A DNA stretch of 34,749 nucleotides from a virus. The translations under genes were made by a program, and so were the position numbers. Below the pieces are notes generated by a model, which had not been told where the DNA came from, ran no database searches, and saw only the letters and a program-made list of their open reading frames with translations. Position 1 is the first letter of the stretch, and each line of letters starts with the position of its first letter. The stretch is taken from the IMG/VR virus record IMGVR_UViG_3300022746_000012, positions 1 through 34,749 of that record, one strand, 5' to 3'. Below, piece by piece: positions 21,547 to 31,407 of this stretch.

Positions 21547-21798
21547 TCAAAACTCCTTCCACAGTTCGTTGAGCACATCCAGCACGCGGTGATCACGCAC
21601 CTGCATGCCTTCCCAACTCTCGTGGCCCAGCCAGAAGCTGTGCTCGTCGTAGCGCTTCAGGAAGAACGGTCCGATGGTGACCATCTCATCATTGCGCCTG
21701 CTCTGCAGCTCCCACAGCGCATCCAGCCACATGGCTGCAGGCAGCGTGACGGACTCGCATCCGGCAGCGCGCTTTAGGTGTTCTTCAACGTCGATCAT
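21547..21798 (-). CDS. Hypothetical early protein
   Basis: 83 residues. The ATG at 21798 is preferred because AAAGGAGAG lies 4-7 bases upstream; a frame start at 21816 would place that site inside the gene. Contents: 'DVEEHLKRAAGCESVTLPAAMWLDALWELQSRRNDEMVTIGPFFLKRY'. Trp-rich, no known motif. It overlaps the sigma-like gene by 14 bases. Confidence 0.65.
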   Translation of the reverse strand: MIDVEEHLKRAAGCESVTLPAAMWLDALWELQSRRNDEMVTIGPFFLKRYDEHSFWLGHESWEGMQVRDHRVLDVLNELWKEF

Positions 21799-22225
21799 GC
21801 TCTCTCCTTTGTTCATGTCTCCACCAGAAGTACGACATGTCCCTGGTGTCCAACTCCCACAAATGCATGCCAGTCAGTGTTTTCTGGCACGTCCGAAACT
21901 TGCGCATGGCCTTCATCAGAATCTGGCGCACACGCTCCTGCGTCCGGTCCATCTCCTGGCCTGCCTCGCGCAGCGTGCAGTTGTCCAGCACGCACAGCGC
22001 AACGGCCTGCTCCTCGATCTCGGTCAGTGGTGTGATGGCCACCAGACGCCTGGCAAAGTCCTGGCGCAGCACCAGGTCAGGATCGGTGCAGGTCGGCCAG
22101 TAGGTGTCCACCGGCTCGCATGGCTCTGGCTCTATGTGGCGGCTGTACCAGAGCTTCTTCACCTCGCTGGACAGGTTGGCCACACCCAGCTTGCCATAGT
22201 GCTGCAAGGCGCGGCCTCGGCTCAT
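21785..22225 (-). CDS. Sigma-70 region 4-like transcription factor
   Basis: 146 residues. Residues 65-112 ('TPLTEIEEQAVALCVLDNCTLREAGQEMDRTQERVRQILMKAMRKFR') follow the sigma-70 region 4 pattern: a helix with L-T-x-x-E-E, then the TLxEAG-x-x-x-x-R-T-x-E-R-V-R-Q-I recognition helix and A-x-x-K-[FL]-R. There is no sign of regions 1-3. The N-terminus ('VKKLWYSRHIEPEPCEP') is phage-specific. It could guide RNA polymerase to late promoters or act as a sigma-like activator. It is coupled to the helicase gene by ATGA. Confidence 0.75.
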   Translation of the reverse strand: MSRGRALQHYGKLGVANLSSEVKKLWYSRHIEPEPCEPVDTYWPTCTDPDLVLRQDFARRLVAITPLTEIEEQAVALCVLDNCTLREAGQEMDRTQERVRQILMKAMRKFRTCQKTLTGMHLWELDTRDMSYFWWRHEQRREHDRR

Positions 22226-25393: not shown

Positions 25394-25798
25394 TTATTTC
25401 CTCGTAATGGTGAAAGATGGGCGGCCAGGTTTGGCCGTGATTGCGCCAGATAGCGGTTTGGTGATCGACTCCTCGGTGGCTTTCCAGATCGCCATGTTGA
25501 TTTCTGGCTTCCAACGAAAGATCGTTGACAAGTGCTCGTCAAGCCCCTCTTCGGCGGCGATCAACAGCAACTTGTCTGCGTTAACGGTGCGGTTGATGCG
25601 CCCCTCGATCTTGATGCCAAAAGGCGATCCGGGTTGCACCACGTTCTCGGTTCCCTCAAAAGTTTCGGGAAACTGAACTTTCTTCAGGATCTGGTCTTCG
25701 CAGTCGCGGCGCATCTCAACTGCGATACGCTCGGCCTCCTTATACCCAAGCCAGCGCTCGGCCAGCTCGTCCAAAGTGATGTCGTCAAAGATTGTCAT
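25394..25798 (-). CDS. Conserved hypothetical protein of recombination block
   Basis: 134 residues. It starts 'DDITLDELAERWLGYKEAERIAVEMRRDCEDQI', a helical charge-rich opening that I recognise from proteins encoded next to Sak4 and SSB genes in other phages. The middle has 'IKIEGRINRTVNADKLLLIAAEEG'. The C-terminus is basic ('PGRPSFTITRK'). No catalytic motif; probably an accessory factor of recombination. ATGA overlap with the ATPase gene. Confidence 0.72.
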   Translation of the reverse strand: MTIFDDITLDELAERWLGYKEAERIAVEMRRDCEDQILKKVQFPETFEGTENVVQPGSPFGIKIEGRINRTVNADKLLLIAAEEGLDEHLSTIFRWKPEINMAIWKATEESITKPLSGAITAKPGRPSFTITRK

Positions 25799-26466
25799 GC
25801 TTGTATCTTCCTAATGATGTCGCCGAGATCGGCGTCTTCCCAAACGTCTAGCTTGCCGCTGCGGTCCTTGGCGAGCCAAAGGCCATCGCCGTCCGTCATC
25901 AACGCGCGGCGCGTCATTCCTTCCGCATCCTTCTCAACCCTCAGCGCCAACACTTCGTCAAAGAAGTAGGGCAGAGACTGGCCGGTTTTGTTACCCGGCA
26001 TTGATGGGGCGTACAACACTCGACCCATCTCGTCCTGAGTTTTTTCTAGTTTGGCGCTCATATAAACGTGCTTACCGGGTAAGTCGCGAAAGCCTCTTAT
26101 AATGTCGGCCATCTGCTCCTGCATAGCGCCGTACGCTTGCCGAGGGTCTTTTGTCGCCTTTTTTTCGGCGTTCAAGACCACTTCGGCGATCTCGCTGATA
26201 CTATCCAGCGCCACCGATTCAAACTCATTGGCCTCGGCGCTGCTCGTGAGCCACCTGTAAGCCTCTTGCAGCTCGCCAATTGATGTAATTTCTACGAAGG
26301 GTAGGTTGGTATCAGCAATTGATAGTAACCCTCCCTCGGCGCTTAAAATTACCGCATTAGGCAGCGTCGGAATGAGACTGGTCTTGCCAGCCCCGGCTTG
26401 GCCGTAGACCAAAAGCTTGACCGCTTGCGCGGTCGCCTCTTTGGTGCGCTTTAATGAAATTGCCAT
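25795..26466 (-). CDS. RecA-like ATPase, Sak4 / AAA_24 type
   Basis: 223 residues. Walker A is 'VYGQAGAGKTSL' (20-31), followed by 'VILSAEGGLLSI'. Walker B-like 'FESVALDSISEIAEVVL' is near residues 82-98, then 'GKHVYMSAKLEKTQDEMGRVLYAPSMPGNK', typical of phage AAA_24/Sak4 proteins. These act as single-strand annealing or RecA-like recombinases that need a cognate SSB. The neighbours (SSB, nuclease, helicase) agree. Confidence 0.87.
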   Translation of the reverse strand: MAISLKRTKEATAQAVKLLVYGQAGAGKTSLIPTLPNAVILSAEGGLLSIADTNLPFVEITSIGELQEAYRWLTSSAEANEFESVALDSISEIAEVVLNAEKKATKDPRQAYGAMQEQMADIIRGFRDLPGKHVYMSAKLEKTQDEMGRVLYAPSMPGNKTGQSLPYFFDEVLALRVEKDAEGMTRRALMTDGDGLWLAKDRSGKLDVWEDADLGDIIRKIQA

Positions 26467-26579
26467 CAGATGCCCCCACTTAACGCAAGAAACAAACAGA
26501 TAGCAGCCACCGCGCCAACGGCAATTGAGGCGAGCGCCGTTACCCAGAAATGGTCTTCGCGTGGTTCGAACTTATTCAT
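26466..26579 (-). CDS. Single-TM miniprotein
   Basis: 37 residues. After a charged start ('NKFEPREDHF') comes one clear membrane helix ('WVTALASIAVGAVAAICLFLAL'). It is joined to the ATPase gene as TGATG and its start overlaps the end of the gene before by 8 bases, so translation is coupled on both sides. Possible inner-membrane partner; function unknown. Confidence 0.72.
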   Translation of the reverse strand: MNKFEPREDHFWVTALASIAVGAVAAICLFLALSGGI

Positions 26580-26739
26580 CGCCGTCTTCCTCTTCAGTTT
26601 CGTCGCTCCAGCTGACCGTCACGAATTCGTCTTCGCTGTAGCTTCGGATTTCAACCTTGTTGACTTCTTCACGAAACTCACGATGCACGTGACCGAGGAT
26701 GATCTGCTCAACCTCTCGCTTGGTAAAAATGATTTTCAT
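26572..26739 (-). CDS. Small acidic protein, first gene of the leftward operon
   Basis: 55 residues from ATG 26739 with AGGA 5 bases upstream; an in-frame ATG at 26775 lies in the promoter region and is not used. 'KIIFTKREVEQIILGHVHREF' is followed by beta residues and an acidic end. Of a type seen early in phage operons, with no known function. Confidence 0.68.
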   Translation of the reverse strand: MKIIFTKREVEQIILGHVHREFREEVNKVEIRSYSEDEFVTVSWSDETEEEDGDE

Positions 26740-26789
26740 CACTATCCTTGGTTGTTGGCTGCACCGTCGGGCCATCCGGTTGTGCAGTG

Positions 26790-26825
26790 GTTGCCACTTT
26801 ACCCCTTTCCAGATAAAGTGTCAAC
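26790..26825. promoter_or_regulatory. Symmetric face-to-face promoter/operator of the two early operons
   Basis: GTTGCCACTTTA (26790-26801) and TAAAGTGTCAAC (26814-26825) are inverted copies with one mismatch. Rightward promoter: TTGCCA (26791-26796), 17 bases, TAAAGT (26814-26819). Leftward promoter: TTGACA (26824-26819), 17 bases, TAAAGT (26801-26796). Each arm therefore holds the -35 of one promoter and the -10 of the other. A regulator bound here would block both directions. Confidence 0.65.
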
Positions 26826-26848
26826 AGAGAGTTTCAACCAAGGTGGAA

Positions 26849-26859
26849 AAAGTGACAAC
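26849..26859. promoter_or_regulatory. Third copy of the operator arm at the Cro start codon
   Basis: AAAGTGACAAC is identical to AAAGTGTCAAC (26815-26825) except for one base, in the same orientation, 34 bases downstream. It covers the Cro start. It could be an autoregulatory site that reduces cro transcription when Cro is abundant. Short, so chance remains possible. Confidence 0.5.
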
Positions 26860-27025
26860 CAAGGAAGCAATCGAGCATTTCGGGGGGCTCAAGAAGCTCG
26901 CCGATGCGCTTGGGGTCTGGCCCCAGGTGATCTATAGATGGGGAGACAGACCGCCGATGGGCAGGCAGTACGAAATTGAAGTCAAGACCGAGGGAGCGCT
27001 GCGTGCCGACCATGAACAAGATTGA
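26852..27025 (+). CDS. Cro-like repressor, P22 Cro family
   Basis: 57 residues from GTG 26852, which has AAGGTGG upstream. 'KEAIEHFGGLKKLADALGVWPQVIYRWGDRPPMGRQYEIEVKTEGAL' is the helix-turn-helix pattern of P22-Cro-type proteins: a scaffold helix, 'LADALGV', the recognition helix 'PQVIYRWG', then 'RQYEIEVKTEGAL'. It is the first gene of the rightward early transcript. No CI-type partner gene was found in the whole genome. Confidence 0.85.
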   Translation: MTTKEAIEHFGGLKKLADALGVWPQVIYRWGDRPPMGRQYEIEVKTEGALRADHEQD

Positions 27026-28889
27026 CGCTGCGCTTTCATATATAAAATGGGGCTGGTCCGTCCTGCCCGTAGTGCCTAACGGCAAGGTCCCGGCCACCGC
27101 TCACGGGGTTAACGACGCAACCAAAGACCCCGAACAAATCAAGCGCTGGTGGACCCAAAACCCGAACCTCAACATCGGGATTGCCTGCGGTAGCGCCAGC
27201 GGGATCGTGGTGTTTGACATTGACCCACGCAACGGTGGTGATTCCAGCTGGCAGCAATGGATCTCGGATCACGGCCAGATTCGTGACGGCGTGATGGCGC
27301 TCACCGCAGGTGGAGGCCAGCACTACGTCGCCAAGCATCTTGATGGCATCCGATCTTGCAAGCTGGCCGATGGCATCGACCTCCTGTCAGACGGGCGCTA
27401 CTTCATTGTGTACCCGTCAACAATCGAAGAGCGCGGCTACGAATGGGAAGCATCGAGCGATCCGTTTGATGGTGTAGCACTTAGTGTGATACCTGATGCG
27501 TGGATGCCGCACTTAGGCCGGCGCAAAGCCACTCCAACCACCAGCGGGGAGCTGATCCAAGGCAACCGTAACGATGGTCTGACGAGTCTGGCCGGTGCAA
27601 TGCGCTCGTTTGGCATGACCGAGGCCGAGATTCTGGCTGCGATCAGCGTCGCCAACGAAACCCGGTGCGAGATTCCGTTGCCTTCTAGCGAGATCAAGCA
27701 GATCGCAAGATCCGTCACGCGGTACGAGCCGGACACGGATGTCGCAGCAAGTAGCGCAATCGGCTCAGAGGCCGCAGAACGGCTTTTGGAGGGCGAGCCT
27801 ACCCGAGACTATTTCCTGACCCGCGCAACGAGCTTCCTGGGCCAACCAAGCCCCGTGCCGTGGATTGTGAAGGGGTGGCTGCCGGCATATGCCACGGCAA
27901 TGATGTATGGCGAATCGGGGGTTGGTAAAACATTCGTCGCACTGGATATGGCCTGCTGCATCGCCAGCGGTATTCCGTGGGGAGGGATTAGAACCAAACC
28001 TGGCATCGTGGTGTATCTGGCAGGCGAGGGTAACTACGGGATGCGCCAGCGGATTGCGAGCTGGTGCAAGCGTAACAACGTAATTAGTCTTGACAATCTG
28101 TTGATCAGCAACAAAGCCATTGATCTTGATGGCCCAGGCGCAGCAACTGAAGTGATCGCCGCCGTGCGTGCGTTAACGTCCGAGCCAGTGGTATTGGTCA
28201 ACATTGATACGCTCAACAACCATATGAGCGGGGACGAAAATAGCGCAAAAGACACCCGGGCGATGATCAATGCCTGCAATATCGTTTCAATGGCCCTTAG
28301 CGCCACGACAATGTTGATCCATCATCTAGGCCACAACTCGGAGTCAAAACAGCGTGCGCGGGGTTCTAGCGCGTGGCGCGGGGCATTGGACGCGAGCATC
28401 TTGGTTCACGGCAAAAGCCACGAGATCATCGTTAGCTGCACGAAGCAAAAAGACGCGCCTGAGCCGAAGGATTTGCACGGGTGCCTAAGCCCAGTGGATC
28501 TAGGCTGGCAGGATGAGGATGGGCTGCCGCTGCCTGGTGCGGTGTTTGAAATGTTCCAAGAGGGCGATCTTCGAATCCCACAACCAAAAGAAGACAAGCT
28601 GGCCGAGCATAAGACTAACCTTGAGCGGGCTTGGTTCGTTGGCGGTGCGCCGGTTGTGGACGAACGGCCCTATGTCAGCCGGGAGGCGTTTAAGACGTTT
28701 TTGCTGGAGCAAGGTGTCAAAACCAATTCGGTAGATCAACACCTAAAGGCTTCAGCCAGACCTGGAATGATCGTTAGGGATCTGACGGATGCTCAAATTA
28801 TAGGCAAGCACGATAAGGGCTGGCTGGTTAAAGATACAGTCCTATCCAAAAGGCTTATGGAAAAACTAGGCCAAGGAAAAGGAATTTAG
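27003..28889 (+). CDS. Primase-polymerase / RepA-like helicase fusion
   Basis: 628 residues from GTG 27003 (AGGGAG 6 bases upstream), or 625 from ATG 27012. Numbering from that ATG, residues 1-165 are a prim-pol (AEP) domain: 'GWSVLPVVPNGKVP', 'FDIDPRNGG' (Asp69, Asp71) and 'GGGQHYV' (His104). About 183-240 is a PriCT-type helical domain ('GNRNDGLTSLAGAMRSFGMTEAEILA'). From about 290 comes a RepA-type ATPase with Walker A 'GESGVGKT' (300-307), Walker B 'VVLVNIDTL' (Asp399) and 'LIHHLGHNSESKQRARGSSAWRGALD'. It probably starts DNA synthesis and opens DNA at the adjacent iterons. Overlaps Cro by 23 bases. Confidence 0.92.
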   Translation: MPTMNKIDAALSYIKWGWSVLPVVPNGKVPATAHGVNDATKDPEQIKRWWTQNPNLNIGIACGSASGIVVFDIDPRNGGDSSWQQWISDHGQIRDGVMALTAGGGQHYVAKHLDGIRSCKLADGIDLLSDGRYFIVYPSTIEERGYEWEASSDPFDGVALSVIPDAWMPHLGRRKATPTTSGELIQGNRNDGLTSLAGAMRSFGMTEAEILAAISVANETRCEIPLPSSEIKQIARSVTRYEPDTDVAASSAIGSEAAERLLEGEPTRDYFLTRATSFLGQPSPVPWIVKGWLPAYATAMMYGESGVGKTFVALDMACCIASGIPWGGIRTKPGIVVYLAGEGNYGMRQRIASWCKRNNVISLDNLLISNKAIDLDGPGAATEVIAAVRALTSEPVVLVNIDTLNNHMSGDENSAKDTRAMINACNIVSMALSATTMLIHHLGHNSESKQRARGSSAWRGALDASILVHGKSHEIIVSCTKQKDAPEPKDLHGCLSPVDLGWQDEDGLPLPGAVFEMFQEGDLRIPQPKEDKLAEHKTNLERAWFVGGAPVVDERPYVSREAFKTFLLEQGVKTNSVDQHLKASARPGMIVRDLTDAQIIGKHDKGWLVKDTVLSKRLMEKLGQGKGI

Positions 28890-30960: not shown

Positions 30961-31407
30961 ATGACCCTATCGATCACCCCGATTTCGCTTGAAGAAGCAA
31001 ATGCCTTTGTTGAGGTAAACCACCGGCATCACAACCCGGTGGTTGGCCACAAGTTTTCTATTGCGGTGAGCGATGGCGATAAGGTGGTTGGCGTGGCGAT
31101 TGTCGGCAGGCCAGTGTCTAGGCATCTGGATAACGGTTGGGTGCTTGAGGTAAACCGCTGCTGTACGGATGGAACCAAGAACGCTTGCTCAATGCTGTAC
31201 GGTGCCGCCTGGCGAGCGGCGAAGGCGCTTGGGTACAAAAGGTTGATTACCTACACGCTACCGGCAGAGGGTGGCGCTAGTCTGAAGGCGTCCGGATGGA
31301 ACTGCGTTGGCGAGCGTGGCGGCGGCAACTGGAACTGCAAAAGCAGGCCAAGGATTGACACTGATGAACTTTTGCGCGGGCAGAAGTTGCTTTGGGAAGC
31401 GGTTTAA
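30961..31407 (+). CDS. XF1762-family protein, GNAT-like fold
   Basis: 148 residues. It has 'NHRHHNPVVGHKFSIAVSDGDKVVGVAIVGRPVSRHLDNGWVLEVNRCCTDGTKNACSMLYGAAWRAAKALGYKRLITYTL', the complete signature of the XF1762 family found in many phages. The order of strands and the 'SMLYGAAWRAAKALGY' helix resemble GNAT acyltransferases. Substrate unknown; modification of DNA bases or small molecules has been considered for such proteins. There is no Shine-Dalgarno; the ATG follows a T-rich run. Confidence 0.82.
   Translation: MTLSITPISLEEANAFVEVNHRHHNPVVGHKFSIAVSDGDKVVGVAIVGRPVSRHLDNGWVLEVNRCCTDGTKNACSMLYGAAWRAAKALGYKRLITYTLPAEGGASLKASGWNCVGERGGGNWNCKSRPRIDTDELLRGQKLLWEAV

Follow-up and report, generated by a model that had tools for sequence, protein, structure and literature searches.

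Both early operons of this phage are probably launched from a single 34-bp sequence by a mutually exclusive pair of sigma70-type promoters. We designate the rightward promoter P_R and the leftward promoter P_L. The window, that is, the whole stretch of DNA analyzed, is the viral record IMGVR_UViG_3300022746_000012 of IMG/VR (positions 1 to 34,749; 34,749 bases). The pair, together with a hairpin at the predicted start of the leftward transcript, was kept in more than 100 related phage sequences.

Two predicted promoters interlock between the early operons

A mechanical scan of positions 26000 to 27600 detected exactly two promoter-like sites, P_R on the plus strand and P_L on the minus strand (shuffled sequences gave a mean of 0.9 and an sd of 0.8). 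The features of the region are summarized in Table 1. A preliminary description of this DNA had reported two inverted arms 12 bases apart and the arrangement TTGNCA, 17 bases and TAAAGT on either strand. Both were present: GTTGCCACTTTA and TAAAGTGTCAAC form the arms, separated by 12 bases and mismatched at one position, and the scan detected TTGCCA on the plus strand and TTGACA on the minus strand. The same description placed the promoters face to face on the same 36 bases. The overlap was confirmed, and the core was refined to 34 bp (26791 to 26824), in which the last base of each −35 hexamer is common to the opposite −10 hexamer (26796 and 26819).

Table 1 Features around the interlocked promoters in the window.
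Feature	Position	Strand	Description
Sak4-like ssDNA annealing ATPase	25795–26466	−	Pfam AAA_24, phrog_124
First leftward gene	26572–26739	−	Encodes 55 aa (MKIIFTKREVEQ...); without family match; start codon assigned from the Shine-Dalgarno position
Shine-Dalgarno of first leftward gene	26745–26749	−	AAGGA; from sequence
Leader hairpin	26759–26787	−	6-bp stem CUGCAC/GUGCAG, 3 × 3 internal loop AAC/ACG, 3-bp stem CGG/CCG, loop AUGGC
Two 12-base arms	26790–26825		GTTGCCACTTTA (26790–26801) and TAAAGTGTCAAC (26814–26825); both promoters lie within; inverted repeat, one mismatch
P_R	26791–26819	+	−35 TTGCCA (26791–26796), 17-bp spacer, −10 TAAAGT (26814–26819); predicted start near A26826; kept in relatives
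P_L	26796–26824	−	−35 TTGACA (26824–26819), 17-bp spacer, −10 TAAAGT (26801–26796); predicted start near A26788; kept in relatives
Shine-Dalgarno of cro	26840–26846	+	AAGGTGG; from sequence
Third arm-like copy	26848–26859	−	GTTGTCACTTTT; Shine-Dalgarno spacer and first cro codons; outside the promoter pair
P22-type Cro	26852–27025	+	57 aa, GTG start; Pfam P22_Cro (PF14549), 67.7 bits (cut-off 30.2)
Primase/polymerase with AAA domain	27012–28889	+	Second rightward gene; Pfam Prim-Pol, PriCT_1, AAA_25; start codon inferred

A strict reciprocal pair was defined as two sites on opposite strands, each with a −35 box matching at least 4 of 6 bases and a −10 box of the form TAnnnT, the −35 box touching or overlapping the opposite −10 box. 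Only one site in the 34.7-kb window had this form. The predicted starts of P_L and P_R are approximately 38 bp apart in the window and 37 to 47 bp apart in relatives, mostly 37 to 40 bp. P_L and P_R are physically exclusive because their cores overlap, and we infer that in vivo, too, these two opposite-direction promoters are used by polymerase in one orientation at a time.

The start codons of the two early operons are separated by 112 bp. The leftward operon encodes the 55-aa protein, the Sak4-like ATPase, DUF7173 and DUF669/SSB-like proteins, a PD-(D/E)XK nuclease, a helicase, and a Sigma70 region-4 protein; the rightward operon encodes the P22-type Cro, the primase/polymerase, a methylase, and terminase. 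The Sigma70 region-4 domain (37.6 bits) is found in a 146-aa protein at 21785 to 22225 on the minus strand, and phage MW202867 carries a Sigma70 region-4 protein at the same place. Such a protein could retarget polymerase to −35 boxes like those of P_L and P_R or to late promoters. A gene for a Mom-like DNA modification protein (phrog_1384) separates the small terminase gene from the large one (30961 to 31407, plus strand).

The promoter pair is conserved in related phages

We collected 80 viral loci by a Cro search and added phages MW202867, 1N2-2 (an Idiomarinaceae phage), PB15 and XX1924 (Alteromonas phages), and CGphi29; these 85 relatives (the Cro-linked set) were reduced to 48 unique homologous 50-mers. 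The strict reciprocal pair was present in 38 of the 48, and 43 had the pair in a relaxed form in which C was permitted at −10 position 1; five lacked it. Dinucleotide shuffles of the same 50-mers gave a strict pair in 47 of 19,200 sequences (0.24%). The spacers were mostly 17/17 or 18/18 with one common base on each side, and the layout was mostly kept when the upstream regions were read directly. Loci gathered via Sak4 (264, overlapping the Cro-linked set) gave 112 unique hairpin-adjacent segments. The pair was found in 74 of these when the −35 box matched at least 3 of 6 bases (null 0.8%) and in 32 when at least 4 matched (null 0.07%), and approximately one-fifth lacked a clear P_L or P_R; as the relatives share ancestry, none of these conservation counts are independent. 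The preliminary description had proposed conservation in relatives with the same flanking genes as a test, and in a large set of such relatives the pair was kept with 17- to 18-base spacing.

Upstream of cro in three G+C-rich loci (L067, L069, and L071), CTTGAC and GTCAAG are in a facing arrangement with less distance between them and with CAAnAT-like −10 boxes. The design may be the same, set in a different register.

More distantly related phages in which the divergent gene encodes a regulator other than a P22-type Cro also had the pair. The gene beside the arms encodes P22_Cro in the window and CGphi29, an HTH_3-like protein in 1N2-2, a YdaS/P22_Cro-like protein in PB15, and a small HTH protein in many loci. 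When the sequences were divided by regulator class, both promoters were present in 28 of 28 with P22_Cro, 54 of 66 with another HTH protein, and 6 of 7 with an unassigned regulator, a split that is motif-based. In locus L070, the same layout and hairpin lie beside a different regulator and primase. In this locus, a P22-type Cro and a hairpin-bearing Sak4 operon are 4 kb apart (L070:8132-9121 versus L070:4105-4317). Opposite the Sak4 operon are a different small HTH gene and a primase of TOPRIM/AAA type, which amounts to a naturally swapped right side.

P_L scores higher than P_R

We compared the two promoters in 88 unique pairs. The exact −35 sequence TTGACA occurred in P_L of 42 pairs and in P_R of one. 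By total consensus score, P_L exceeded P_R in 57 pairs, matched it in 21, and fell below it in 10; these are consensus scores and not measured strengths, and P_R was picked under the overlap constraint. P_R was well short of consensus. The regulator gene is thus located on the lower-scoring promoter and the recombination operon on P_L, usually the higher-scoring one.

The leftward transcript is predicted to begin with a conserved hairpin

Directly left of P_L, seven diverse relatives, including the window, fold into the same hairpin or a close variant. Its folding energy alone is unremarkable, so the case for the hairpin rests on covariation. In 19 Cro-linked sequences, 97.7% of pair cells were formed, and six of the nine pairs were changed on both sides. 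In 35 diverse sequences, 97.8% of pair cells were formed with 92 two-sided changes, and the covariation score was 0.774, compared with 0.160 for shuffled sequences and at most 0.15 when the partners were slid; the 35 sequences were chosen by a structural scan, and the Cro-linked set is the cleaner test. The sequence of the stems is almost free, and most positions of the internal loop and loop keep a preferred base.

The structural scan detected the hairpin in approximately 195 to 211 of 257 Sak4 loci (among loci L096 to L359), a count that depends on a filter of our own design and contains a few hits by chance. In bacterial genome assemblies that had been collected separately, model R1, for which only Cro-linked loci were used, recovered the hairpin at this position upstream of Sak4 (L360 and L362, and more weakly L379, L364, and L368). 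Phage 1N2-2 carries the hairpin as well as the promoter pair. The window copy and 13 relatives gave no Rfam match at the gathering score; the best weak matches of the window copy (E 0.4–0.7) were to unrelated families and were rejected as an identity for the hairpin. By itself, the hairpin is a candidate for a new structured RNA family of phage leaders.

Among 101 unique cases, with distances of 6 to 10 allowed, the stem started 7 or 8 nt past the P_L −10 box in 100, and the preceding base was A in 88. From this fixed distance, the leftward message should begin with the hairpin, within approximately one base. The distance from the hairpin to sak4 varied between 43 and more than 200 nt; a fixed distance to the promoter and a variable one to sak4 suggest a role tied to the 5′ end. 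The hairpin is probably a 5′-end element for mRNA stability or protein binding. We considered three other functions. A terminator was rejected, as no U-run follows the hairpin and it precedes the first gene. A nut/put-type antitermination site in both early operons was rejected, as each record has one strong copy. A translational operator of sak4 is less likely, given the same distances.

Alternative explanations

Cro-type operators often overlap promoters, and the arms could be read as a palindromic Cro operator or a pair of half-sites to which the promoter-like boxes are secondary. In addition to this common overlap, the arms of the window are symmetric at 11 of 12 positions, a third arm-like copy lies at the Cro start, and long perfect arms are seen in certain groups (for example, L316). 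However, most relatives lack such symmetry. The bases kept across 16 unique arm pairs were those of the −35/−10 composite TTGnnAnnnTA, the pattern by which the pairs were chosen, so the informative test lies in the remaining positions. These matched between arms in 15 of 80 cases compared with 16.4 in shuffled pairs (p = 0.78) and, in a second set, in 11 of 70 compared with 13.6 (p = 0.91), p-values that are rough because the sequences are related. The non-promoter bases of the arms thus vary independently, the opposite of what an operator predicts, and the inverted repeat that had been described as the unit does not appear to be the functional one. Binding of Cro to the arms had also been suggested, but the arms persist beside HTH_3-like and YdaS/Cro-like regulators, independent of the regulator family. 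With 24 bp between their centers, the arms are widely spaced for a single small dimer. The third copy does exist in the sequence; as an operator we rejected it, as it consists of the A-run between the Shine-Dalgarno sequence and the start codon followed by GTG-ACA-AC, and it is lost in relatives with an ATG start. No convincing conserved Cro operator was found by eye in the leaders. An operator is therefore an unlikely explanation. Arms kept across regulator families and asymmetric outside the boxes are best read as polymerase sites, and the symmetry of the window would be largely a by-product of two interlocked promoters. Upstream of sak4 in L316 and L327, the arms form a perfect 13-base inverted repeat (CGCTTGCATCATA ... 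TATGATGCAAGCG), and symmetry may have been selected after all in some groups such as these. In the rightward leader, AGTTTCAACC at 26830 to 26839 is a direct repeat of AGTGTCAAC in the right arm and is kept mainly in close relatives.

It is also conceivable that only P_L is real, that the rightward boxes are a by-product, and that cro is transcribed from elsewhere. The weaker −35 box of P_R (TTGC.A, or 3 of 6 matches in many relatives) fits this explanation. We consider it improbable, as, among 48 unique relatives, 38 retain the T, A, and T of the right −10 box with changes at the intervening bases, the scan detected no further promoter-like site in its range, and the space from the pair to the cro start is too small for another promoter. 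A pair of functional promoters is the preferred reading. As for the hairpin, inverted repeats bind proteins too, and this one adjoins the replication operon; it could be a DNA element, either a protein-bound inverted repeat or an origin cruciform, instead of an RNA leader. Against this, non-terminal outer-stem pairs read on the leftward strand included eight G-U and no A-C, which points to RNA of that strand. The nearly free stem sequence with kept loop bases and the fixed position relative to the P_L −10 box argue in the same direction, and a DNA element seems a poor candidate compared with an RNA leader.

Proposed mechanism and significance

RNA polymerase bound at one of two overlapping promoters covers the other. 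Here, where each −35 box has a base in common with the opposite −10 box, polymerase would load in one orientation at a time. P_L, with its consensus −35 box, would drive the recombination and repair operon (Sak4, SSB-like protein, nuclease, and helicase), and the weaker P_R would drive the small Cro-like regulator and the primase. Host polymerase would probably favor P_L first, and the regulator expressed from P_R, or a different early product, would later shift or damp the balance between P_L and P_R, with the weaker promoter feeding back through Cro. Promoter competition would make the two operons antagonistic, and the leftward mRNA would begin directly with the conserved hairpin. Overlapping promoters in earlier work are discussed in PMC4207663 and PMC12825309; such competition matters only when the promoters are active enough (PMC12825309).

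We regard the compact early-promoter module as real and, as predicted from sequence, as a variant of overlapping divergent promoters with a candidate leader RNA. A more general proposal, which we make tentatively, is that a large group of Sak4 phages starts both early operons from one site used by polymerase in two orientations, that the left message is tagged at its 5′ end by a dedicated RNA element recognized by a protein of the phage or the host, and that the module is passed on whole as one regulator is exchanged for another. If this is true, polymerase orientation and RNA recognition would take the place of the separate promoters and operators found in lambdoid phages. With this interlock, polymerase competition could be studied as a developmental decision in a natural setting. 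The covariation of the hairpin and its fixed place at the predicted start make a binding partner or a role in mRNA fate directly testable.

Comparison with known systems

Overlapping divergent promoters are already known, mostly as single cases or with common −10 elements. The present pair is a predicted reciprocal −35/−10 interlock, kept across a large set of phages and across regulator swaps. In the early region of lambdoid phages, a left operon for recombination and a right operon for Cro and replication diverge from separate PL and PR promoters, with cI between them. The window has the same divergent operons with a P22-type Cro, but its PL and PR equivalents are interlocked rather than separate. 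There is no cI gene between the operons, as the 112-bp interval from one start codon to the other is free of genes; thus, this is not a lambdoid immunity region. Stem-loops of the ompA type at the 5′ end protect mRNA. The hairpin here is likewise predicted within approximately one base of the 5′ end, but the sequences of its internal and apical loops are also conserved, beyond the needs of stability. Searches of the open-access literature turned up neither an identical arrangement in a phage nor a leader RNA for Sak4.

In the bidirectional promoters of Warman, Grainger and colleagues, the −10 elements are common or overlapping and the starts are 7 to 25 bp apart, with 18, 10, or 23 bp preferred (PMC10268837, PMC12825309). 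These resemble the present pair in that polymerase engages a short sequence in two opposite orientations. However, the −10 boxes here are separate and 12 bp apart, the overlap is between −35 and −10 boxes, and the predicted start distance of approximately 38 bp in the window lies outside that range. A closely comparable layout is Pc/Pr of the conjugative plasmid pLS20, in which core promoters on opposite strands overlap, differ in strength, and place the regulator gene on the weak one (PMC4207663). In the plasmid, the regulator is a tetramer, the DNA is looped, and conjugation is driven by a strong promoter, whereas the phage module has a small Cro-like regulator, no evidence of a loop, and a leader hairpin. 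Common to both are the overlapping opposite cores, and the consensus scores suggest that here, too, the regulator gene may lie on the weaker promoter.
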